In this document: piece after piece, positions 18,793-58,316 of the stretch
Position numbering within the stretch: the stretch's first letter is position 1
Layout: each line of letters starts with the position of its first letter
Source of the DNA: Actinomycetes bacterium
Lineage (GTDB): Bacteria; Actinomycetota; Acidimicrobiia; Acidimicrobiales; Acidimicrobiaceae
Reading direction: 5' to 3'
Assembly: GCA_021841935.1 (NCBI GenBank)
Contig: JAKCDL010000004.1
Span: forward strand, 1 to 64,000
Length of the DNA: 64,000 nt
Made by a program: the position numbers and the translations under genes
Notes under the pieces: model-generated
Database searches by the model: none
What the model was told of the DNA's origin: nothing
Seen by the model: the letters and a program-made list of their open reading frames with translations, nothing else

Positions 18793-19902
18793 TTACTTAT
18801 TAATGCACTCCACTAAGTACAAGAGCGCACTCATTGAGTGGCCCTCAACAAAGTCATCTATGTGAGGCAGGCAAGTAGCCATCCCCCTTGCTAAGGGAGC
18901 ATAGCCATCCTGGACTTTGAGAGGGTTAACCCAAATTATTCGATCCGCCGCCCTAGCCAATCGAGTCATTTCAACATCTAAAGTCGAGGGATCTCCCCGG
19001 TCCCAACCGTCCGAGAGAATAACAACAGTCGCCCCTCGCGCCATCCCTGCTACGCCATAGTTTTGATTAAAGTCAGCTAGAACGTCACCTAATCGAGTTC
19101 CTCCAGAGAAGTCTACTACCCTGCTCGCTACGTCAGAGATTGCTCGATCTGGATCCCTCCATGAGAGCTCCTTGGTAATTCTCGTAATTCTGGTAGCAAA
19201 GGTAAATACCTCAATACGACCCCTTGCGACGATACTGGCGTGAAGAAATCGCAGCAGCGCTCTCGAATAGCTATCCATGGAACCCGATATGTCAAGGAGA
19301 AAGATCAAACGACGATACTTCTCGCTCTTAGAGCGATAGATCCGTTTGATCGTCTCCCCATCGGTCTTGATGGCTTCACGAAGAGATGCTCTCGAGTCAA
19401 TGGAACCCCTTCGCTTACTTATCTTCATTCTCCGAGAACGTTGGAGAGATCCGCTGATTCTCATTCGTGCCATCAGTGAATAGATCTCGTTCAACTCTCC
19501 CTTCGTAAGCTTGGCGAAGTCTTTTTCCGTCAATACCTCTCGAGCAGAGAACCGAAGTGTCTGCCCCTCCTCCTGCTCGCCACCGTCGTCATCGTCTTTG
19601 GAGGAGTCATCATCACCTAGATCAAAGAAGAGAGTTTCACTCTCAAGTGCCTCATCGCTAGTTTCAAATTCCTCTTCAACCCGGTCAAAGTAGCTTGAGA
19701 AGGCTGCGGAAAATGCAGGATAGTCCTCCGCCCTCTTTACAAGAGTTGTCCTCGCTATGTTGAAGACCTTTACTCTGCTATCTGAGCCAACAAGCGATAG
19801 CGCCTCTATAAACGAAGAGCACGATGAGGGATCTACCGCAATACCAAAACGGCGCAGATGTTCCGCAAATCCAGCAACAATCTCATAAGTATCAGCCATC
19901 AA
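18793..19902 (-). CDS. coxE: CoxE-like VWA-domain protein
   Basis: 369 aa. An N-terminal helical part, then a very acidic stretch (DDDSSKDDDDGGEQEEG, about 100-116), then a basic Arg-rich region, and a C-terminal von Willebrand A domain. The MIDAS metal motif is DISGSMDSYS, followed by the Thr of SGGTRLGDVL and the Asp of LSDGWDRGDP. CoxE works with the AAA+ ATPase CoxD as a MoxR-VWA chaperone pair that sulfurates or inserts the Mo/Cu centre in Oligotropha. It sits 46 bases after coxD. Confidence 0.85.
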   Translation of the reverse strand: MMADTYEIVAGFAEHLRRFGIAVDPSSCSSFIEALSLVGSDSRVKVFNIARTTLVKRAEDYPAFSAAFSSYFDRVEEEFETSDEALESETLFFDLGDDDSSKDDDDGGEQEEGQTLRFSAREVLTEKDFAKLTKGELNEIYSLMARMRISGSLQRSRRMKISKRRGSIDSRASLREAIKTDGETIKRIYRSKSEKYRRLIFLLDISGSMDSYSRALLRFLHASIVARGRIEVFTFATRITRITKELSWRDPDRAISDVASRVVDFSGGTRLGDVLADFNQNYGVAGMARGATVVILSDGWDRGDPSTLDVEMTRLARAADRIIWVNPLKVQDGYAPLARGMATCLPHIDDFVEGHSMSALLYLVECINK

Positions 19903-19948
19903 TAGAAGCCGATCGATGCATCATTGAGATCAAACACAAAAAATACAC

Positions 19949-20941
19949 CTACTTGCTCTTAGCAACTGCGGCACGGACCAAAGAGGAGATATCCGCATCT
20001 TTTACCTTCATCTGATCCTCCCGATACTTGATCACTGCTGAAAGTGAAGCCTCAAAGAGAGAGGACGTAACCTCAGTGGCACCAAGGGTTACTAAAGATC
20101 TGAGCCAATCGATAGATTCGGCGATCCCAGGTGGCTTGAATAAACCCATAGTCCGCAAGACACCCGTAAGAGCTGCGACTTGTTTGGCTAAAAGGTCCTC
20201 TACGCCTGGAACTTTGGTTCTCAAAATCTCTACCTCGACGTCATAGCCTGGATGTTCCACCCAATGGTAGAGACAGCGCCTCTTCAAAGCATCGTGCAAG
20301 TCCCTGGTTCGATTCGATGTAACGACCACGATCGGTGGCACCTTTGCATTGATAGTGCCAAGTTCAGGGATAGTGACTGAAAAGTCAGAGAGGGCCTCAA
20401 GGAGAAAGGCCTCAAATTCATCGTCCGCCCTATCTAACTCATCGATAAGTAAAACTGGTGGAAGAGTCACTCCATTGGCAGTAGGCAAATTATCGCCTGC
20501 ACCGCTTGGATCAAGGGCACGGAGTAGAGGACGGCGAATCAGAAACTTTTCATCGTAGAGGTCGTCCTCGACGTCTTCACTGCTTCCTTGGGTAGCCTCG
20601 ATGCTGCGCAGATGTATCAGCTGTCTGGCATAGTTCCACTCATAGAGTGACTGGGCAACGTCGATTCCTTCGTAACACTGAAGTCGGATCAGTGGAGATC
20701 CCATCAAACGAGCGAGGCACTTGGCGACTTCTGTCTTACCCACACCTGGTTCGCCTTCGAGTAACAGAGGCCTCCTTAGTGCTAGGGCTAGGTACAGAGA
20801 TGTCGACAGTGCCTCATCCGCTAGGTAGTCGAGAGCACGTAGCTCACCCGCTAATTCAGCAGGTGAGCTCACGCCAATCGCATCTACGATCGATGGTAAC
20901 GAAGAGACGTCACTGTCTTGGAGCGTCTCACGTCGCATCAA
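19949..20941 (-). CDS. coxD: CoxD-like MoxR-family AAA+ ATPase
   Basis: 330 aa. Walker A GEPGVGKTEVAK near 80, Walker B LLIDELDRADDEFEAFLLEAL near 165, sensor-1 VVTSNRTRDL near 205, arginine finger in ALKRRCLYHW. CoxD partially unfolds apo-CODH and drives reconstruction of the active-site metal cluster in Oligotropha; here the target would be CoxL. 14 bases separate it from coxM. Confidence 0.87.
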   Translation of the reverse strand: MMRRETLQDSDVSSLPSIVDAIGVSSPAELAGELRALDYLADEALSTSLYLALALRRPLLLEGEPGVGKTEVAKCLARLMGSPLIRLQCYEGIDVAQSLYEWNYARQLIHLRSIEATQGSSEDVEDDLYDEKFLIRRPLLRALDPSGAGDNLPTANGVTLPPVLLIDELDRADDEFEAFLLEALSDFSVTIPELGTINAKVPPIVVVTSNRTRDLHDALKRRCLYHWVEHPGYDVEVEILRTKVPGVEDLLAKQVAALTGVLRTMGLFKPPGIAESIDWLRSLVTLGATEVTSSLFEASLSAVIKYREDQMKVKDADISSLVRAAVAKSK

Positions 20942-20955
20942 ATATTTTTCCTCTT

Positions 20956-21774
20956 CTAATTTGAGCTTGCCTCAACAAGGGCTCGTCGCACTAGCACCGA
21001 TGCTAGGTGGCGACGATAGTCTGCTGAAGCATTTAGGTCCGATGGTGGTTCAATGCCCTCTGAAGCTAGCGCTGCCGCCTCTTCGATGGATGCACCACCG
21101 GAGAGCGCACTCTCAACAGCCTCAGCTCGAATCGGCATCGAAGCCATGTTTACCAACGAAATCTTGGTCGATCCATTCCGAACGGCTGCTACTCCAACGA
21201 TTGCCCAGTCTTGAGCTCTTCGATTGAACTTTTGATACGACCAGCCGCCAGTTGCCTTCGGAACCTTGATCTCAGTGAGGACTTCTCCCTGATTGAGATC
21301 GGTCTCAAGAAAGCCCTTGAAGAAGTCTTTAGCGGCCACCTCGCGAACTCCACTAGCAGACGTAACTACCAGTGTGGCATCGAGAGCCAAGATCGCTGCA
21401 GGAAGGTCAGAGGCGCCATCGCCGTGCGATACCGAACCCCCAAGGGTGCCACGGTGCCTCACCGAAGGGTCACCTACAAGGGAGGCGACGTAGGCAAGCA
21501 TCGGCACGGAGGCCTTGACGACATCTGAGGACTCAATTGCAGCATGGCGCGTAAGGGCGCCAATCGCAACGTGATCTCCTCGATCGGCGATATAGGAGAG
21601 GTCGCCGATACGACCAATATCTACAAGCTTCGATGGGTTTGCCAATCGCAGCTTCATCAACGGGAGCAGTGAGTGTCCACCGGCGATCAGCTTGGCATCC
21701 TCTTCATTGTTGAGGATGGAGATAGCCTCCGACACACTACTTGCTCGAACATAATCAAATGATGATGGAAACAT
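20956..21774 (-). CDS. coxM: CO dehydrogenase/xanthine dehydrogenase FAD-binding subunit CoxM
   Basis: 272 aa flavoprotein of the PCMH/CODH medium-subunit type that passes electrons from the iron-sulfur subunit to the quinone pool. Seen: FDYVRASSVSEAI at the N-terminus, the FAD pyrophosphate loop KLIAGGHSLLPLMKLRL (residues about 30-46), IGALTRHAAIE, and the second flavin motif HRGTLGGSVSHGD near 112. A C-terminal CO_deh_flav_C domain follows. Comes third in the order S-L-M, with coxL 45 bases upstream. Confidence 0.9.
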   Translation of the reverse strand: MFPSSFDYVRASSVSEAISILNNEEDAKLIAGGHSLLPLMKLRLANPSKLVDIGRIGDLSYIADRGDHVAIGALTRHAAIESSDVVKASVPMLAYVASLVGDPSVRHRGTLGGSVSHGDGASDLPAAILALDATLVVTSASGVREVAAKDFFKGFLETDLNQGEVLTEIKVPKATGGWSYQKFNRRAQDWAIVGVAAVRNGSTKISLVNMASMPIRAEAVESALSGGASIEEAAALASEGIEPPSDLNASADYRRHLASVLVRRALVEASSN

Positions 21775-21819
21775 CTATAAAAGATCCTTATCTCAAAACT
21801 TCGACGAATAGTTCGTCAA

Positions 21820-24198
21820 CTAACCCTTTTTAGCAGCGTTAATCGCTCGCCACACCCTCTGAGGTGAAGCTGGCATCTCGACATCTTCGATCCCTAGGTG
21901 GTTGAGCGCATCTACAACTGCATTAATGATTGCCGGAGGAGAAGCGATGGCACCTGCTTCGCCAATACCTTTGACTCCTAGTGGATTCGTAGGGCTTGGG
22001 GTAACAGTGTGATCGAGCTCGAAGAATGGAAACTCTGCTGCCGATGGAACCAGATAATCTGCCAAAGTAGAGGTTATGAGGTTTCCGCGATCGTCATATG
22101 CCGCCTCTTCGAAGAGGGCTTGAGCGATTCCCTGTGCCAATCCACCATGTACTTGACCCTCAATGATCAACGGATTTACTCGATTGCCACAGTCGTCGAC
22201 TGCTAGGTATCTCAACAGGTCAACCTTACCGGTCTCTGTATCCACCTCTACGAGAGCCAAATGCGATCCATATGGGAAGGTAAAGTTAGGCGGATCCCAG
22301 GTAACCGAAGCCTCAAGATTCGGCTCCATCCCATCGGGGAGGTTGTGAGCGGTGAATGCCTCAAAGGCCGCACCTGCTAAGGGGAAGGCCTTGTCGGGAG
22401 AGCCCTTCACAGTGAACATTCCATTGGCGTAGTCAAGATCTGCCTCAGAGACCTCCAACTGATGAGCTGCGATCGAACGAGCTTTTTCAAGTACCTTTTC
22501 CGTGGCCATATGGACGGCAGAGCCACCGACCGAAAGGGATCGGGAACCGTAGGTATCTAGACCGTGCGGAGCAATCGCAGTATCGGAGTGAAGCACTTCA
22601 ATATCGTTAATGTCGATGCCTAGGCGATCCGCTACAATCATGGCCCAAGCAGTCTCATGTCCTTGGCCATGAGGTGCTGAACCCGTAACTACCTGCACCT
22701 TTGAAGTCGGTAGGATTCTAACCGTTGCAGCTTCCCAGCCACCCGCTCCATAGTTCAAAGAGGCCAGGACCCGACTTGGAGCAAGTCCGCACATCTCAAC
22801 GAAGAAAGAGATACCTATCCCGAGAAGCTTCGTCGACCCAGAGTCGATCCTTCTCTGCTTCTCAGCCAAGATATCCTCGATTCCAAATAGGCCAACGGCC
22901 TTATCGAGGTTGGTCTCATAGTCACCGGAGTCAAATACCAAGCCAGCAGCTGACGAATATGGGAATTGCTCCTTTTGGATGAAGTTGCGACGACGCAATT
23001 CGATCGGAGAGACTCCCATCTTGTGAGCTAGGGCGTCCATTGCACGCTCAATGGCAAAGGTGGCCTCTGGGCGACCAGCACCACGATATGCATCCGTTGG
23101 AGTCTTGTTGGTGAAGTAACCAGTACAAGAGAAAGAGTAGTTTGGAACGTCGTAGACACCATGGTACAAAAATGCACCGAGTAGCGGGATTCCTGGGGTG
23201 ATGAGCTGTAGGTAAGCGCCCATATCGGCGAGGATATTTACGCGAACGGCGGTCACTTTGCCGTTCTCATCAGCGGCAAGTTCAATGTATTGAACCTGGC
23301 CGCGACCGTGAATCGTCGCTAACGCATTCTCAGTACGCTCCTCAGTCCAGCGAATCGGCTTTCGAAGCTTTCGTGCTAGTGCCAAAGTCAAAACATCCTC
23401 GGCGTAGACGTCTAGCTTCGAACCAAATCCACCACCAACGCTAGGCGCAATAACCCGAAGTTTTGTCTCGCTAATTCCAACTGTCAGGGCGAGCATTATC
23501 TTCAAGATGTGAGGAATTTGAGTGGTGTTATAGATCGTAAAGTCTCCACCAAATGGAGCGGGGACGACGACGATTGACCTCGGCTCCATAGCTGCTGGCA
23601 CGATTCGTTGTTGAATGTATCTTTCACTAACGGTATAGGCAGCTTTAGCGAAGGCCTCGTCAACTCCATCTTTGTTGGGAATGAGATCCCACTTGTAGCT
23701 AGCGTTGGTGCCGAGATCCTCGTGAATTACCCTCTCGTCCTTAGCCGAGTCTTCAATCTCAAGAACTGGATCGAGTTCGTCATATTCGACATTAATCAAT
23801 TCCAACGCATCGATTGCTGCTTCTTTGGAGTTCGCTAGGACTACAGCTACGCCGTCACCTACGTAGTTGACCTTCCCATTTGCAAGTGGGAAGTGAGTTG
23901 GATTCTTCATGTCAGGGGTAACGGGCCAAGCACATGGCATGGGGCCAGCCCAATCGTCCTTGAGGTCCTCGTAGGTATAGACTGCAACGACTCCAGGAGC
24001 TTCCTTTGCAGCTTCAGTGTCGATAGAGACGATCTTCGCATGTGCAACAGTGGACCTAAGAAGGGCCATATACAGTGCACCTGGGATTACCAAGTCATCG
24101 GTGAACTTTGCCTCTCCGGAGAGAAGTTTCGGATCCTCTTTTCTCAGGGTACGGGTTCCTAGGATTCCGTGAGAGGTCTGCGAATCTGTAACGGTCAT
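21820..24198 (-). CDS. coxL: Form II CO dehydrogenase-like molybdenum-binding large subunit CoxL
   Basis: 792 aa molybdopterin hydroxylase subunit, normal length. Seen: [23 protein letters not shown] at the N-terminus, GGGFGSK near residue 250, the active-site motif AYRGAGRPE near 370, [11 protein letters not shown] near 520, and the C-terminal catalytic Glu in [12 protein letters not shown]. True (form I) CO dehydrogenases have AYxCSFR with the Cu-binding Cys; this AYRGAGR is form II, whose CO-oxidising ability is disputed. It may hydroxylate another substrate such as an N-heterocycle or aldehyde. Six bases follow coxS. Confidence 0.9.
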
Positions 24199-49317: not shown

Positions 49318-50444
49318 TGGAAAAGACGATCGGTCGACCTGCTTACAAGGTTGTTCCCTTCAGAGAACGAAAGAAAGTTTCTAGAGGGCGTAATTCGTGC
49401 TAAAAACCTCGCAGTAGTATCGTGCAACTCGTGCCAAGATTGCTCTTGGCGCAGCTGATAGTCTTTGCCACGAAGAAATCGTTGAATTGTCTGCCGTTCA
49501 AATCAAGCTTTACTCTCCCTAAGTGGAGGAAGAGGCTCTCTCTTTGGGGTATCGACTCTATCTGATGCTCCAAGAAGTGAAACCCCAAGAACCCACGACG
49601 ATTACAAGATAGCTGAGATCATTCGTATTACTACTACCACTGAGCTTGCTACTACCACTGAGCCAAAGAATGCTACACAGTGTTCAACAACTGAGATGGC
49701 AAGAGTTGTCAGGCGACTCTCAATCAACAGTCTCTCGTATATGGAGAAACTTTGGACTAAAACCCCAACTCATTGAGTACTGCAAGATATCTAACGACCC
49801 TAACTTTTCTTCAAAGGTTCGAGATGTAGTTGGACTCTATCTCAATCCCCCAGAAGCAGCACTTGTGCTATCTGTCGATGAGAAGACGAAAATACAAGCA
49901 CTTGAGGGGAGACAAACAGTTCTTCCAATGACTCCCTTTGTGCCGGAGCGTCAAACACACGAATACATAAGACAGGGAACAACCAATCTCTATGCTGCTC
50001 TTGAAGCAGAATCTGGGAATGTCACAACAAAGACGACAACTGCACAACGTGCAGTTGAGTTCATCTCATCTCTAGATCTCACCGACAAAGAGATACCAAA
50101 GGATCTAGAGGTCCATCTCATTATGGATAACTACGTTACCCATAAGACCGATACAGTGCGCAAATGGAACCTTGAGCATTAACGCTCTCACTTTCCTCCA
50201 ACCTATTCATCGTGGATGAATCTTATTGAAGCGATGGTTCTCTGAAGTAACTACCGAGATATAGCAGCGATCAAAACATAAATCTCAAAAGCAACTCATT
50301 GGCGCAATTACAAAGTGGACGGAAACCTGCAATTAGAAACCTCGTCCTTTTAGATGGCATAAGACGACTGACGAGATCTTTAGATCCATGGAGAAGTACC
50401 TCGGCCCAGTTACTAAGAGAATCTATGGCTATGGAGACTGCGGA
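49318..50444 (+). pseudogene. IS630-family transposase, left copy (frameshifted)
   Basis: DDE transposase broken into several frames. From ATG 49318: MEKTIGRPAYKVVPFRERKKV, then a stop; CHEEIVELSAVQIKLYSP in another frame; and a frame from about 49646 to 50182 with STVSRIWRNFGLKPQ, VRDVVGLYLNPPEAALVLSVDEKTKIQAL (first Asp), PERQTHEYIRQGTTNL and VHLIMDNYVTHKT (second Asp). After the stop at WNLEH the remaining SSWMNLIE (third acidic residue) and WTETCN segments are out of frame. Not functional as one protein. Confidence 0.85.
49490..50444 (+). repeat. Left copy of the IS630-derived direct repeat
   Basis: 955 bases that recur at 52884-53856 with about a dozen point differences and one 18-base length difference. 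Sequence similarity begins abruptly at TCTGCCGTTC and ends after GACTGCGGA. An 18-base unit (CTACTACCACTGAGCTTG, 49631-49648) is present about twice here. Confidence 0.9.
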
Positions 50445-50857
50445 TCCGTCTTGACGCATTATGTTTGCTGCTTCGCCGATCACCCGACGCATCGGCTGAA
50501 TCAACATTGTTGATGGTCGTTGCAGAAGCGGTCAAAGAAGTCATTCACTGGCTTCCCTGAACGGTAAATCGCTCCAAATCTGCCATGGAGGATACGTTGG
50601 GTGGTCAAGATTCAAATATCGATCGCATATCCTTTTTCGAAGGCGTCTCAGTTTATTTAACTCCAATTTCGTCTGTCTTCTGTCGTCGCGCACGGACAAT
50701 CACGAATCAAATTAGGCGACACTCTGAATGGCTGCACAGGTATACCTGAGGATTTCTCAGTAAAAGAGATAATTGATGTTGCCTAAAAATACTTTGTTTG
50801 CTAGAGATAAAAACAATCTATTTTAAGGCTACAATTGTTTGTGAAGGGTAGTTCGCA
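50445..50857 (+). promoter_or_regulatory. Upstream region and candidate operator of the AbiE-like operon
   Basis: About 410 bases with no gene. Its right end is AT-rich: a -10-like TACAAT (50830-50835) lies 23 bases before the start codon, straddled by the inverted repeat AAACAAT (50811-50817) / ATTGTTT (50834-50840). AbiEi antitoxins are known to bind inverted repeats at their own promoter, so this is a reasonable operator candidate. The -35 is unclear. The first part is stop-rich and unidentified. Confidence 0.4.
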
Positions 50858-51976
50858 ATGAAAACAAACATTGAACTTATAGAAAACGAAATGATAAAAG
50901 CTGCGATTGATTGGCTTCGAAGTAGGCTTCCCGAAAACTGGGAGATCGACCCTACTGGTCGTCAGATACATGCACCTAGAAGGGGGAGAGCTAACGCAGC
51001 CTTCGACTTGAAGAGCCCTGATGGGATGTTTGCCACTGTTGTAGTGGAAGCCAAGAAAAGCTTTAGCCCTAGGGATGTCGATCTGCTTCTTGGTGGGTTG
51101 GGACGCACTCTTCGTGATTTGGCAGGTAACATTCCGATTCTCGTTGTATCTCAGTGGCTCAGCGACGGAAGTCGGAATCGGTTACGCTCCGAGGGGATTA
51201 ACTATATAGATCTCACTGGTAATTCCCTCCTTCGCCTCGATAACCCTGCCGTTTTCATTGAAACTGCGGGAGCATTTAAAGATCCGTATCCTTTGAATCG
51301 AGGAAAAGTTCGGCTTCAGGGACCTCGAGCGGCCCGCGTAGTTAGGAACCTGGTAGATGTTCGTCCACCGTTCGGTGTGCGGGAACTTGCCGCAGCTTCT
51401 GAGATGACGCCGGGATACGTCTCGCGACTATTAACTACACTTGACACCGAGGCGCTCATCGAAAGAACCGGTCGAGGTCGCGTAATATCTGTTGATATAG
51501 ATGGCCTAATCCGACGTTGGGCTAGTTCTTACGATATATTCCGCACAAACCGAACCGCTACCTACCTAGCACCCCTCGGTGCGAGCCGGACTCTAGGAAG
51601 AATTGACTCAATTCGTCATCGAACTGCCGTAACTGGGTCTTTTGCTGCAGCTCGTATAGCACCTGTCGCAGGCCCTGCTCTTCTCGTTGTGTACTGTGAT
51701 GATCCAGCAGTCGTCGCCAAAGAGCTAGAACTAATCCCAACCGACGAGGGTGCTAACGTCGCCTTACTCGAACCATTTGATCCGATCGTGTGGGAAAGAA
51801 CATCTGAGGAGGTCGGCATTAGATACGTGGCGCCTTCACAAGTGGCGGTCGATTGTTTGACGGGAAATGGCCGGATGCCTGCTGAGGGAGAGGCCATTTT
51901 GCAGTGGTTAATTAAAAACGAGGATCTTTGGCGCCAGCCGACACTATCGTCCGTCTCCAAAGAGGGAACAATTTAA
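50858..51976 (+). CDS. AbiEi-like antitoxin/transcriptional regulator
   Basis: 372 aa. An N-terminal region has a PD-(D/E)xK-like core (AAFDLKSPDG then VVVEAKKSFSPRDVDLLLGGLG), followed by IPILVVSQWLSDGSRNRLRSEG-type segment and the diagnostic INYIDLTGNSLLRLDNPAVFIE seen in AbiEi_2-type antitoxins. Then a winged helix (VRELAAASEMTPGYVSRLLTTL, about 177-215) and a C-terminal part that may bind the partner. Role proposed: autorepression of the operon and neutralisation of the neighbouring nucleotidyltransferase toxin. 20 bases before it. Family recalled from memory, so moderate certainty. Confidence 0.65.
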   Translation: MKTNIELIENEMIKAAIDWLRSRLPENWEIDPTGRQIHAPRRGRANAAFDLKSPDGMFATVVVEAKKSFSPRDVDLLLGGLGRTLRDLAGNIPILVVSQWLSDGSRNRLRSEGINYIDLTGNSLLRLDNPAVFIETAGAFKDPYPLNRGKVRLQGPRAARVVRNLVDVRPPFGVRELAAASEMTPGYVSRLLTTLDTEALIERTGRGRVISVDIDGLIRRWASSYDIFRTNRTATYLAPLGASRTLGRIDSIRHRTAVTGSFAAARIAPVAGPALLVVYCDDPAVVAKELELIPTDEGANVALLEPFDPIVWERTSEEVGIRYVAPSQVAVDCLTGNGRMPAEGEAILQWLIKNEDLWRQPTLSSVSKEGTI

Positions 51977-51996
51977 CTAATTTGGAAGGAGGCAAC

Positions 51997-52863
51997 GTGA
52001 CGAATAGCTTTACATTTGATCCTCGCTACGTAGTTGCACGACGTGTTCTGTTGGATGCACTAAGCGCTCTGGCGCCTTATGGAAAGGCATTTATTGTTGC
52101 AGGAGCGCAAGCCGTCTATCTACGCACTGGACTAAATGAAGTAGCTGTGGCTCCTTACACCACAGACGGTGACTTGGCACTTGATCCTAACCTTATCGGC
52201 GATGAACCCGCGTTGGAGTCTACGATGCGCAATGCTGGTTTTGAACTAGCAGGAATGGATACCAGCGAGATCGAACCTGGCATTTGGACAAGGACTGAAG
52301 AGGTAGACGGCCACCAACTGATCATTCCAGTAGATTTAATTGTACCGGAAGCGGCATTAATCAACACTTCAGGTCGAAGAGGTGCTCGACTCGGAGTCCA
52401 TGGTAACCGTGCCGCACGTCGCGCAATTGGTCTTGAGGCGGCACTGGTCGATCACGCTACGATGACTGTCACGTCACTTGATCCCACTGATCTCCGAAGT
52501 ATTGACGTCGAGGTAGCTGGGGTGGCCGCACTCTTGGTTGCCAAAGCACACAAGATCAATGATCGCGTCGTAAGTGGGCGTGCCGATAGGCTAAACGACA
52601 AAGATGCGGCAGACGTATACCGAATTATGCAGACAGCGTCATCTAGCGATGTAGGTGCGACCCTAAGAGAACTTCTTAGTGACAAGACTGCAGGAGGGCC
52701 AACCGAGAAAGCGCTCGTCTACCTCGAAGAGTTATTCGGTAGGCGAGAGGGAGAGGGGGTCAAAATGGCACAGCGCGCACTTCGTCTGGCTATACCTGAA
52801 GCGCAGATCACCGTGCTTTGTCTCTCTTTTACAAGGCAACTCATCGACGACGCTCGCAAGTGA
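51997..52863 (+). CDS. AbiEii-like nucleotidyltransferase (putative toxin)
   Basis: 288 aa. N-terminal polymerase-beta-like NTase core: FIVAGAQAVYLRTG near residue 35 and YTTDGDLAL near 57, a DxD metal motif, then a third acidic strand IPVDLIVPEA. A C-terminal helical part includes VAALLVAKAHKINDRV, RLNDKDAADVYRIM, matching the K-H-K ... D-x-x-D style of AbiEii/MenT proteins. AbiEii-type toxins act on tRNA or NTPs during phage infection. The GTG start follows GGAAGGAGG; the frame open to 51928 overlaps the antitoxin. It ends 20 bases before the right IS repeat. Confidence 0.65.
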   Translation: MTNSFTFDPRYVVARRVLLDALSALAPYGKAFIVAGAQAVYLRTGLNEVAVAPYTTDGDLALDPNLIGDEPALESTMRNAGFELAGMDTSEIEPGIWTRTEEVDGHQLIIPVDLIVPEAALINTSGRRGARLGVHGNRAARRAIGLEAALVDHATMTVTSLDPTDLRSIDVEVAGVAALLVAKAHKINDRVVSGRADRLNDKDAADVYRIMQTASSSDVGATLRELLSDKTAGGPTEKALVYLEELFGRREGEGVKMAQRALRLAIPEAQITVLCLSFTRQLIDDARK

Positions 52864-52883
52864 AAGCGAAGTTGCTCTCAGAG

Positions 52884-53856
52884 TCTGCCGTTCAAATCAA
52901 GCTTTACTCTCCCTAAGTGGAGGAAGAGGCTCTCTCTTTGGGGTATCGACTCTATCTGATGCTCCAAGAAGTGAAACCCCAAGAACCCACGACGATGACA
53001 AGATAGCTGAGATCATTCGTATTACTACTACCACTGAGCTTGCTACTACCACTGAGCTTGCTACTACCACTGAGCCAAAGAATGCTACACAGTGTTCAAC
53101 AACTGAGATGGCAAGAGTTGTCAGGCGACTCTCAATCAACAGTCTCTCGTATATGGAGAAACTTTGGACTAAAACCCCAACTCATTGAGTACTGCAAGAT
53201 ATCTAACGACCCTAACTTTTCTTCAAAGGTTCGAGATGTAGTTGGACTCTATCTCAATCCCCCAGAAGCAGCACTTGTGCTATCTGTCGATGAGAAGACG
53301 AAAATACAAGCACTTGAGGGGAGACAAACAGTTCTTCCAATGACTCCCTTTGTGCCGGAGCGTCAAACACACGAATACATAAGACAGGGAACAACCAATC
53401 TCTATGCTGCTCTTGAAGCAGAATCTGGGAATGTCACAACAAAGACGACAACTGCACAACGTGCAGTTGAGTTCATCTCATCTCTAGGTCTCACTGACAA
53501 AGAGATACCAAAGGATCTAGAGGTCCATCTCATTATGGATAACTACGTTACCCATAAGACCGATACAGTGCGCAAATGGAACCTTGAGCATTAACGCTCT
53601 CACTTTCCTCCAACCTATTTATCGTGGATGAATCTTATTGAAGCGATGGTTCTCTGAAGTAACTACCGAGATATTGCAGCGATCAAAACATAAATCTCAA
53701 GAGCAACTCATTGACGCAATTACAAAGTGGACGGAAACCTGCAATTAGAAACCTCGTCCTTTTAGATGGCATAAGACGACTGACGAGATCTTTAGATCCA
53801 TGGAGAAGTACCTCGGCCCAGTTGCTAAGTGAAATTATGGCTATGGAGACTGCGGA
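52884..53856 (+). pseudogene. IS630-family transposase, right copy (frameshifted)
   Basis: Same broken transposase as at 49490-50444: DAPRSETPRTHDDDKIAEIIRI in one frame, then the 53040-53594 frame with STVSRIWRNFGLKPQ, SVDEKTKIQAL and IMDNYVTHK, and the same stop at WNLEH. It has three rather than two 18-base units (53025-53078). The sequence just upstream, in the AbiEii tail, reads ASESEVALRVCRSNQ in the transposase frame, which resembles an IS630 N-terminal helix and may be IS sequence too. Confidence 0.85.
53025..53078 (+). repeat. 18-base tandem repeat, three units
   Basis: CTACTACCACTGAGCTTG repeated (last unit ends CCAA). The left IS copy has two units at 49631-49666. The unit is a multiple of three, adding TTTELA-type residues without altering frame. 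Confidence 0.8.
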
Positions 53857-55998: not shown

Positions 55999-57570
55999 GT
56001 GGTAACATCTCATCAGGGGCGGTTACTTCGACGGTGTTGTGAGGGAAAAATCAAAGCACGCTACTTTTTTGATGAGAGCTCAGGTAGTTCGCCAAGTGAA
56101 ATTAGCTATGCAATTTCCAATTGCACCTTTGAGCAGTCGCCAACCATAGAATCTGGGGTCGTAGTCCTACTTGACTCCTTGCGTTGGAGCATCTTCACTT
56201 CGCAATCACGCCTTTTAGGGCTAATCTCTGACGAAAAGGGGTATCAACTCCAACTAACGACTTCAAGTGGGCAAAGATACACTGGCTCAATTCCAACACA
56301 GCGAGCCGAGCGACCTAGAAGGTCGATAGCGGCTCCATTTGCCTACATAGAGCCTACCACGTTACGTAACAAAGTCGCTAACCTAACCCTTCCCTTCGGC
56401 CTTTTAGCGATCGCTGAGACCACCTTCGAGAGATCTAGCACATCAGGTTATAACCAAAACGGTAGGCAGATCGTAAAAGTAGAGAGACTCCACTTCGACG
56501 GCGCGCCAACGGCCATTATCGAGGTCTTAGGAGATAGCGAGAGCGCCATCGATGAAGTAGCAGAGCAACTCGGCATAGATAAATCTGTCCGCGAGGTTTC
56601 TCTAGCTAGTACGGTAGAGCTAATAGCCTCTCTCGCAAAGAGGAGACCAAATGACTTCGCAGCCTCTTTTGAAATCGGAGTTGGAAAGAAATTAAACGAC
56701 GCCCTCTTCGATCTCCTAAAGAGATCGATCCCGTCGCTAAAATTAGCCTACGACGCCGTACTACAGGAAGTTGACGAGGAGTCACTCCACGACCTCCGCG
56801 TTATCGCTCGAAGCATCAAATCCATCTTCTCAGCAGCTGCACGATACGTTCCAAGTGATGAAGTTGCCGACTTTCTCGAAGAGACCAGCAACCTCATAAC
56901 AGTCACAACCGCCCACCGCGACATCGACGTGGCAATTGAATATCTAAGCCAATTCCCCTCATTCGAAGGGGCATGTAACGTCCTTGAAGATCGTCGCCGT
57001 GATCTAACTCGGTCATTCCAAATCGACCTTCAACGGGCGATCGAATCGGTCACTGCTACCTGGAAGATAGCTGCAGCCCACCTGATAGTCACCTCGAGTC
57101 GCGATACAATCTCCGTCGAGGAGTTCTACGATAGAGAGGCAAAGAGGGTTCACGGAAAGATAGTCTCTGCCCTGAAGAAGGGTGAAGGTGCAAAAGGCCT
57201 CTCGATTGATGAACTTCACACTCTTCGCAAGCGTTTCAAGAAGTTACGCTATCTAACTGAAACCTTTCACCGTAATGCGAGCGCCGACCCACTAGCGATT
57301 ACCTCAAAGTCATTCCAAACCTCACTAGGACTACTCCAAGATTGTCAAGTTCTACTAGATCTCCTACTCGACATCGAAGAACAGGCGGGCGCCAACGGTC
57401 AAAGCGTTGAGGCGGCAATATTACATAGCCAAGAGAGGCTAGAGGCAGCCAAGACGGAGTCTCTAGCGAAGCTAGAGCAACTCCTCAAATCTCAAAGCCC
57501 TTCAAAGGTTGAAGAGGTAAAAAAATCTACCGCAACCTCTCCAATTGCTCGTAAAGGGAAAAAAAGATGA
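55999..57570 (+). CDS. CHAD-domain protein with degenerate CYTH-like N-terminus
   Basis: 523 aa at most, since the GTG start is uncertain. Residues about 45-175 resemble a degenerate CYTH/TTM fold (VVLLDSLRWSIFTSQSRLLGLI, GYQLQLTTSSG, VKVERLHFDG, AIIEVLG) without the ExExK motif. Residues about 220-490 are a helical CHAD domain with the signature His/Arg/Lys helices SLHDLRVIARSIKSIF and LHTLRKRFKKLRYLTETF plus TTAHRDIDVAIEYL. CHAD domains bind inorganic polyphosphate and locate to polyP granules. A Lys-rich tail (VEEVKKSTATSPIARKGKKR) ends the protein. Overlaps parA by 4 bases. Confidence 0.78.
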   Translation: MVTSHQGRLLRRCCEGKIKARYFFDESSGSSPSEISYAISNCTFEQSPTIESGVVVLLDSLRWSIFTSQSRLLGLISDEKGYQLQLTTSSGQRYTGSIPTQRAERPRRSIAAPFAYIEPTTLRNKVANLTLPFGLLAIAETTFERSSTSGYNQNGRQIVKVERLHFDGAPTAIIEVLGDSESAIDEVAEQLGIDKSVREVSLASTVELIASLAKRRPNDFAASFEIGVGKKLNDALFDLLKRSIPSLKLAYDAVLQEVDEESLHDLRVIARSIKSIFSAAARYVPSDEVADFLEETSNLITVTTAHRDIDVAIEYLSQFPSFEGACNVLEDRRRDLTRSFQIDLQRAIESVTATWKIAAAHLIVTSSRDTISVEEFYDREAKRVHGKIVSALKKGEGAKGLSIDELHTLRKRFKKLRYLTETFHRNASADPLAITSKSFQTSLGLLQDCQVLLDLLLDIEEQAGANGQSVEAAILHSQERLEAAKTESLAKLEQLLKSQSPSKVEEVKKSTATSPIARKGKKR

Positions 57571-58316
57571 AGACGGTCATGTTCTACAACCAAAAGGGCG
57601 GAGTTGGCAAAACTTCAATTGCAGTTAACTTCGCCTACCTCGCTGCATCAGAGGGATTTCGAACACTCCTTTGGGATCTTGACCCACAGGCAAGTGCTAC
57701 CTTCATCCTTAGAGGAGACGACGATGACGCCCCAAAGGCATCAAAGATAGTCTCCGAGGAGTCGTCACTAGATGAGCTCGCAATTAGTTCAAACTACAAC
57801 AACCTCTTTCTCCTTGCATCTTCACTCAAGATGCGCCTCTTCGCAGAAAAGCTAGCCGAGTCAAAGAACCCGGTAAAGCGCCTCACACGAATACTTGAGG
57901 CGACACAAGACGAGTTTGACCTCACAGTTATCGATGCGCCTCCAAACCTAACCGGCCTATCAGAGACTGTAATTTCAGCCATAGATTTGGTCGTAGTCCC
58001 ACTTCAGCCAAGTCCCCTAGCGGTTAGATCTTCACAGGTTATGATCGACCACCTAGCTTCAATAGGTCTAAGCGAAAAGTGCGTTGCCCTCTATAACATG
58101 GTGGACCTCAGGCGAATCGGCCATCGCGTTGCAATTTCAGAGACAGAGCCGATCGGCAAGTTACCAAAGCTCCGATCGTTTATCCCATACTCTGCGGACA
58201 TCGAAAAGATGGCGATAACGCGAGAGCCACTTCCAGTTATCTCTCACTCATCGAAGTCGTCGCTCGCGATACAAGGCCTCTACAACGAGATCTCAAATTT
58301 GATCTACGCACGATAG
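57567..58316 (+). CDS. ParA-family ATPase
   Basis: 249 aa. Deviant Walker A NQKGGVGKTSIAVNFA near residue 8 with the signature first Lys, switch Asp in WDLDPQASAT near 40, Walker B LTVIDAPPNLTGL near 115, VVVPLQPSPLAVRS, and VALYNMVDLRR. These proteins form ATP-dependent gradients on the nucleoid that position plasmids, chromosomes or protein cargos. No parB or parS lies beside it; the coupled partner is the CHAD protein. Start ATG overlaps the CHAD stop (ATGA) behind AAAGGGA. Confidence 0.87.
   Translation: MKTVMFYNQKGGVGKTSIAVNFAYLAASEGFRTLLWDLDPQASATFILRGDDDDAPKASKIVSEESSLDELAISSNYNNLFLLASSLKMRLFAEKLAESKNPVKRLTRILEATQDEFDLTVIDAPPNLTGLSETVISAIDLVVVPLQPSPLAVRSSQVMIDHLASIGLSEKCVALYNMVDLRRIGHRVAISETEPIGKLPKLRSFIPYSADIEKMAITREPLPVISHSSKSSLAIQGLYNEISNLIYAR

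Follow-up and report, generated by a model that had tools for sequence, protein, structure and literature searches.

Two adjoining genes in the window, as the whole analysed stretch of 64,000 nucleotides is called here, encode a CHAD protein and a ParA-type ATPase, and their arrangement recurs in at least eight phyla. The pair is probably (at roughly 60%) a two-component system for the positioning and partition of polyphosphate (polyP) granules, which are very common bacterial inclusions. In the accessible part of a 2025 review, AlgP is the sole polyP positioning protein in the table, the positioning factors of Caulobacter are given as unidentified and the need for energy as something that remains to be seen (PMC13052382). 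A conserved CHAD-ParA pair makes this energy question a two-gene experiment. It would also assign a likely cargo to many ParA genes that are now orphans, and could explain the retention of a degenerate CYTH domain in a large CHAD subfamily. ParA-type positioning with a new cargo is a plausible interpretation.

Layout of the gene pair

The two genes lie on the same strand and share an ATGA (Table 1). This overlap had been proposed from the sequence only, and both its coordinates and its length of four bases are borne out, so that the observation itself is confirmed. In Pfam the first protein scored 84.7 bits for CHAD (cut-off 25.6) and the second 111.8 bits for AAA_31 (cut-off 27), while NCBIfam named neither above a cut-off. 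An MFS transporter gene is the nearest ORF on either side of the pair. The host genome assembly (2.53 Mb, 86.6% complete) contains a single CHAD match. A scan for promoters and terminators gave fewer matches than its own shuffles and was set aside.

Table 1. Features of the CHAD-parA pair, in positions of the window
Feature	Position	Strand	Details
CYTH-like/CHAD protein, candidate polyP-binding cargo adaptor	55999..57570	+	523 aa, GTG start; Pfam and model
CYTH/TTM-like beta domain, degenerate, without ExExK	56038..56532	+	residues 14-178, model strands
CHAD domain	56752..57366	+	residues 252-456; H264, R267, R271, R307, R417 and Y418 are equivalent to CtCHAD polyP contacts
Lys-rich C-terminal tail	57493..57567	+	residues 499-523; not conserved
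ATGA stop/start overlap of CHAD gene and parA	57567..57570	+	sequence
ParA-type ATPase, candidate nucleoid-bound positioning ATPase	57567..58316	+	249 aa; Pfam, model, tree
Deviant Walker A KGGVGKT with signature lysine K10	57594..57614	+	sequence

PolyP-binding residues of CtCHAD in the CHAD domain

In the model of the CHAD protein (pLDDT 88.3, pTM 0.86), eight strands make up the N-terminal domain and helices the C-terminal one. By E-value, the nearest Foldseek match of the whole protein was E. coli ygiF, with a TM of 0.29 and an rmsd of 19.6, which implies that the two domains are arranged differently from those of the window protein. CtCHAD ranked after ygiF with a target TM of 0.6-0.74. 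A subfamily profile of 74 rows (the window, 61 ParA-linked and 12 ParA-less relatives) matched the CtCHAD chains (3e0s/6qv7/6qva) with 348 bits (E about 1e-102), compared with 160 bits for a profile of CHADs without downstream ParA. The CHAD of a Chlorobiaceae CHAD-ParA pair (L216) matched CtCHAD by itself with 321 bits; the window protein alone did so weakly (23.6 bits, E 2e-4). By these scores CtCHAD, which was crystallised with polyphosphate, fits into the ParA-linked CHAD subfamily. Mutation of H253, R256, R260, R296 and R418/Y419 lowered polyP binding by CtCHAD, according to the accessible part of the report (PMC6537752). All 74 rows, that of the window included, keep the equivalents of these six residues, by which CtCHAD binds polyP in vitro (Table 1). 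This argues for the proposal that the CHAD protein is a polyP binder. The domain and these residues are shared with the phosins and other CHAD proteins (PptA, ygiF, CtCHAD).

The degenerate CYTH domain and the C-terminal tail

Pfam gave no CYTH match in the window CHAD protein. Among the Foldseek matches of its N-terminus are class IV cyclases and thiamine triphosphatases, with a probability of 1.00 and a target TM of about 0.5-0.6. This supports a CYTH-like fold; ExExK is absent. The sequence-only reading of a CYTH fold that has lost ExExK thus agrees with the predicted structure for the fold and with the sequence for the motif.

Between the sets compared here, absence of the motif is associated with a linked ParA. 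ExExK was present in 1 of 28 linked proteins (L045), compared with 26 of 29 full-length CHADs without downstream ParA, and in 1 of the 74 rows of the named set (drawn from the best 80 of 426 loci; see below), which is a ParA-less member (L230). Pfam CYTH was likewise found in 1 of 28 linked proteins and in 28 of 29 full-length CHADs without downstream ParA (Fisher p 6e-14, kinship ignored). The 29 proteins had been picked for full length, shorter CHAD-only proteins being outside the contrast, and include one with a ParA-like stretch upstream (L107). Exceptions to the association are L045 and a published Acidithiobacillus cluster discussed below. L045 (genome G208) is the sole linked CHAD of the 28 with both an intact ExExK and a Pfam CYTH match, and its ParA is long-branched; perhaps it represents a second origin of the pair. 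A comparison of N-terminal positions between linked and ParA-less rows yielded a weak lead, consisting of a basic residue at window R156 and an RGY after the last CYTH strand, and the window itself partly lacks these features.

The usual ParA-activating element is a basic tail, and it was the Lys-rich tail that had been taken for the adaptor element. This tail does exist in the window protein, where the last 25 amino acids carry a net charge of +6. Some relatives within the genus, and a minority of the remaining proteins, are similarly charged there. A net charge of at least +5 in the last 25 residues occurs, however, in 12 of 63 linked proteins (from the best 80 of 426 loci) as against 11 of 29 unlinked ones. 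Since the basic tail is not conserved, the tail was ruled out as a general adaptor element. As our preferred guess, ParA would dock on the degenerate CYTH domain and not on the variable tail, because ExExK loss accompanies ParA linkage in the compared sets.

In most linked ParAs, residues 48-66 form a basic loop (consensus RIKPKVKGG), and the net charge over these columns is at least +2 in 53 of 56 rows. The loop has a charge of -3 in the window and of -2 in the close relative L194, and both of these have Lys-rich CHAD tails. Possibly the basic element has been swapped between the ParA loop and the CHAD tail in these two.

The ParA ATPase and its siblings

The model of the window ParA (pLDDT 93.5, pTM 0.92) was closest in Foldseek to Soj/ParA, then to McdA and MinD (TM about 0.8), and BcsQ structures were also among its fold matches. 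By sequence it scored 138.9 bits against the ParA 8ray, 108 bits against Soj and 66.7 bits against McdA. The deviant Walker A was found in 62 of the 63 linked loci (among the best 80 of 426), the N-terminus of the exception lying outside the captured sequence. In 56 rows no variation occurs at K10, G11, G12, G14, K15, T16, D37, D39 and D123. All positions of KGGVGKT except V13 are thereby invariant, and V13 is kept in at least 90%. On inspection no MinD-like C-terminal membrane tail was seen in the window ParA sequence.

When used as a query in its own genome, the window ParA matched itself and a 28%-identical ParA on a different contig. The only ParB_N match in the genome (E up to 0.001) lies at C9:80064, directly behind that other parA (C9:79240). 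The earlier statement that no parB lies near the pair therefore holds, the flanking ORFs being MFS genes, and the 86.6%-complete genome yielded no cognate ParB for the window ParA. In a ParA tree, which does not contain McdA, MipZ and other ParA families, 21 ParAs were split off by one branch with support 100 (their canonical status is presumed; one, L024, has an adjacent ParB), and on the other side stood 79 linked ParAs and 22 CHAD-less siblings. The window ParA thus shares its ATPase fold and motifs with the chromosomal ParABS system (Soj/Spo0J) and differs from it in that no ParB was found and in its separation from the presumed canonical ParAs.

A polyP binder joined to a Soj-like ATPase, in a genome with a separate ParA-ParB pair, could also mean that CHAD is a polyP sensor that tunes ParA at the chromosome or division site, so that segregation or division would respond to phosphate status or starvation and granules would not be the cargo. 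An effect of polyP on the cell cycle of Caulobacter and Pseudomonas, described in the accessible text of PMC9239181, would agree with this. However, genes for ParA/MinD proteins are often encoded near the genes of their own cargo, as the accessible part of PMC10241942 has it, and no division or chromosome gene was recognised in the 22 neighbour clusters listed for the pair, of which ten representatives were run through Pfam. We regard such a sensor as rather doubtful and favour the positioning of granules.

The CHAD-less siblings on the linked-ParA side of the tree include L154-L168 (families f20, f3 and f56) and L182-L185. By eye, some of their neighbours resemble phosphoglycerate mutase and dnaK, and Pfam identified an iron-sulfur protein (L161), MgtE (L160), glutamine synthetase (L182) and a sigma factor with a LytR-CpsA-Psr gene (L166). 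Near L154-L168 there was no PPK1, PPK2, PPX, PstS or PstC match; weak matches only were obtained with a phosphatase query (L156) and an ABC query (L165, L166). No clear alternative partner gene was found in the neighbourhoods of the CHAD-less siblings.

Conservation of the linkage

The window CHAD protein was used as a query in 60 genomes of relatives, its own included (E up to 1e-5). CHAD matches were obtained in 21 of the 60, and in 21 of 21 a ParA gene lay directly downstream on the same strand at a distance of at most 55 bases; the ParAs of L005 and L010 were cut by contig ends. This sustains the view that CHAD and parA are one conserved unit. In a class-wide sample, CHAD was present in 206 of 394 genomes. 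Fetching 99 regions around CHADs of the order and class, mostly those with high Pfam scores, gave 14 with ParA downstream; L085 has a frameshifted ParA, L107 has a ParA-like stretch upstream of CHAD in which the deviant Walker A was not found, and the remaining regions showed no ParA. As so few regions among many CHADs have a ParA, the ParA-linked CHADs constitute a subfamily.

The ATPase was followed in the same class sample with a profile built from 30 linked ParAs, the cut being set at 190 bits in a score gap from 196 to 172 bits, the latter being where the presumed canonical ParAs start. Above this cut there were 46 matches in the 394 genomes: 29 adjoin CHAD, all of them in genomes of the window's own taxonomic order, and 17 do not. 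In the phylum outside the class (396 genomes), 7 of 12 such matches adjoin CHAD and 5 do not. The genome G340 has a CHAD of the linked type (L051) with no downstream ParA and no other ParA above 190 bits, and G044, of the same group-code genus, keeps the ParA (L016). A recent loss in G340 relative to this congener is likely.

For a wider view, one genome per species was scanned with a CHAD alignment. Similarity to CHAD, regardless of ParA, was the sole criterion by which the best 80 of 426 confirmed loci were kept as the named set, which is not a census. ParA was directly downstream in 63 of these best 80 of 426, and in one more (L268) CHAD and ParA adjoin across ambiguous bases. Thirteen had no ParA in the fetched flank and 3 end too early, so that, counting L268, the genes are adjacent in 64 of the 77 testable loci (best 80 of 426). 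By phylum, as taken from the record titles, the 63 linked loci (best 80 of 426) comprise Pseudomonadota (22), Actinomycetota (21), Thermodesulfobacteriota (12), Calditrichota, Chlorobiota and Verrucomicrobiota (2 each), and Chloroflexota and Myxococcota (1 each). An overlap of exactly 4 bases was called in 33 of these 63 (best 80 of 426), and in 53 of them the gap does not exceed 60 bases. The sequence-only reading had suggested a search for the adjacency across Actinobacteria; the linkage proved to be common and to extend to eight phyla rather than Actinobacteria alone. An apparent 763-aa ORF in L268 resembled a CHAD-ParA fusion, but its junction holds ambiguous bases (NN) and it was not counted as one.

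In a CHAD tree of 130 rows, made by a quick method and with a long-branch warning, the ParA-linked label needed 16 changes against a shuffled mean of 38. The ParA-less members were scattered over it (13 changes for 17 rows), and the 29-row set without downstream ParA needed 3 changes. The pattern fits one old association followed by repeated loss, as far as a quick tree with long branches can indicate. Thirteen of 77 testable homologues (best 80 of 426) have no ParA next to them, and sibling ParAs without CHAD exist, which might suggest that two unrelated genes are kept together by chance or shared regulation. Yet order and strand are kept and the 4-base overlap is frequent across eight phyla, and the arrangement persists while identity to the window falls to 15% for CHAD and 30% for ParA, which makes such hitch-hiking very improbable.

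Genes around the pair

The host genome has a PPK1 gene (C10:235078) and a Ppx/GppA gene (C10:238089) together, away from CHAD-parA. A search of 45 linked genomes, the host included and three less complete linked relatives (G004, G006, G007) left out of the count, yielded PPK1 in 44; the exception, G016, has the pair. In G631 (L181) the PPK1 gene is the immediate upstream neighbour of the pair, and in G044 (L189) the two are separated by about 3 kb; in most linked genomes ppk is elsewhere and not near the pair. Among the 63 linked loci (best 80 of 426), 9 have PPK1, PPK2 or PPX within about 5 kb, and 15 when PstS/PstC-like genes are added, names given by resemblance since Pfam reports general transporter domains only. 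If a chance rate of 1% is assumed, 9 of 63 has a p of about 1e-8, a value overstated owing to kinship. Recurrent neighbours of these 63 loci (best 80 of 426) are the histidine-phosphatase family (15), ArgJ (7), PPK2 (6), CYTH, PPK1 (6 by tblastn), PstS-like, PstC-like, a genus MFS gene and an ABC ATPase (5 each), and PPX and MgtE (4 each). ArgJ occurs mostly in Desulfobulbaceae and their kin; we know of no tie between ArgJ and polyP.

ParA-less CHAD members also adjoin PstS/PstC-like, CYTH or PPK2 genes, and the neighbours therefore speak for CHAD more than for ParA. Nearby polyP genes thus lose weight as an independent argument for ParA. Four genomes with more than one CHAD (G273, G138, G238, G424) have a ParA-less CHAD by PPK1 and another CHAD paired with ParA.

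In several phyla the pair has PPK1, PPK2, PPX and CYTH genes close by, which, together with the BcsQ structures among the fold matches, could indicate that ParA is a local ATPase for granule biogenesis. It would recruit or switch PPK or other granule enzymes in the way that BcsQ serves cellulose synthase, with no transport involved. But ppk is elsewhere in most linked genomes, the host's own included, and ppk-CHAD neighbourhoods without ParA are common in the class sample. A role in biogenesis is on this evidence unlikely, and granule positioning remains the preferred explanation.

A neighbour family in 15 loci that had appeared as 'NUDIX' has a histidine-phosphatase domain as its common part; as NUDIX itself is present in only 2 of 63 loci (best 80 of 426), it was not counted as a polyP marker. 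The histidine-phosphatase loci are L207, L212, L219, L221, L222, L224, L227, L232, L235, L236, L240, L246, L253, L256 and L264, and the gene is also found beside two ParA-less members (L217, L228). Magnesium is a counter-ion of polyP, and an MgtE magnesium-transporter gene lies shortly downstream of CHAD-ParA in L219, L229, L235 and L264. Archaeal CHAD clusters include a SixA phosphatase, as stated in the accessible part of PMC10892726. Possibly the histidine phosphatase is a third player of CHAD-ParA.

A proposed model for the positioning of polyP granules

In the mechanism that we propose, ATP-bound ParA dimers would coat the nucleoid, and CHAD would coat the polyP granule, touch ParA and stimulate ATP hydrolysis and release. 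The granule would then follow the ParA gradient, by which granules would be spaced and split between the daughters. As the partner of this ParA is a polyP binder, the cargo is most simply the polyP granule. The overlap of the two genes, their retention as neighbours in eight phyla, the CtCHAD polyP residues, the ATP-dimer motifs of ParA and the failure to find a ParB of its own are consistent with this. Against it are the 13 of 77 testable named loci (best 80 of 426) without ParA, scattered over the tree, the CHAD-less ParAs that score above 190 bits (17 of 46 matches in the class and 5 of 12 in the rest of the phylum), the pair in G016 with no PPK1 match and the failure to find a conserved basic tail. 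The sequence-only interpretation of CHAD-ParA as a polyP-granule positioner is thus partly supported. The fuller version, an ancient system of at least eight phyla in which a CYTH domain was turned into a ParA-docking module and ParA actively spaces and splits polyP granules, is held more tentatively, at a little short of an even chance. If true, it would be the first case in which a store of inorganic polymer is positioned at the expense of ATP.

McdA/McdB is a ParA-type ATPase with a partner gene next door, and the present pair resembles it in the adjacent partner gene and in the McdA structures among the fold matches. The partner next door is here a CHAD protein, and MFS genes flank the pair; this partner would act on a polyanion cargo, whereas McdB works on a protein shell. 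AlgP of Pseudomonas aeruginosa and PhaM/PhaF place storage granules on the nucleoid and are, in the accessible parts of PMC9239181 and PMC13052382, DNA-binding tethers with no ATPase described, whereas the present pair joins the gene of the putative granule binder to that of an ATPase.

No published functional tie between CHAD and ParA was found in the openly available literature, in which the gene pair is in print for one genus only, Acidithiobacillus; earlier mention elsewhere is possible. In its folD-ppk-parA-CHAD cluster, parA adjoins a CYTH-CHAD gene, and the cluster was read as cAMP signalling or possible copper resistance (PMC6416229, PMC10892726); the accessible parts of both papers contain no granule-positioning hypothesis. 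The CYTH active-site residues are reported there as conserved (PMC6416229, accessible part), in contrast to the degenerate CYTH of the window.

Other features of the window

At 49489-53339 the window contains two near-identical transposase fragments, the first of which has DDE_3; their repeats are 100% identical over 300 nt and 99% over 175 nt. Between them lie a gene that scores at the AbiEi_2 cut-off (50858-51976) and an ORF of 311 aa that has no Pfam match; PADLOC gave no match for either. At 18796-24198 a CoxE-like VWA gene and a xanthine-dehydrogenase-type molybdopterin subunit are present, and this region is possibly a CO-dehydrogenase-like cluster.
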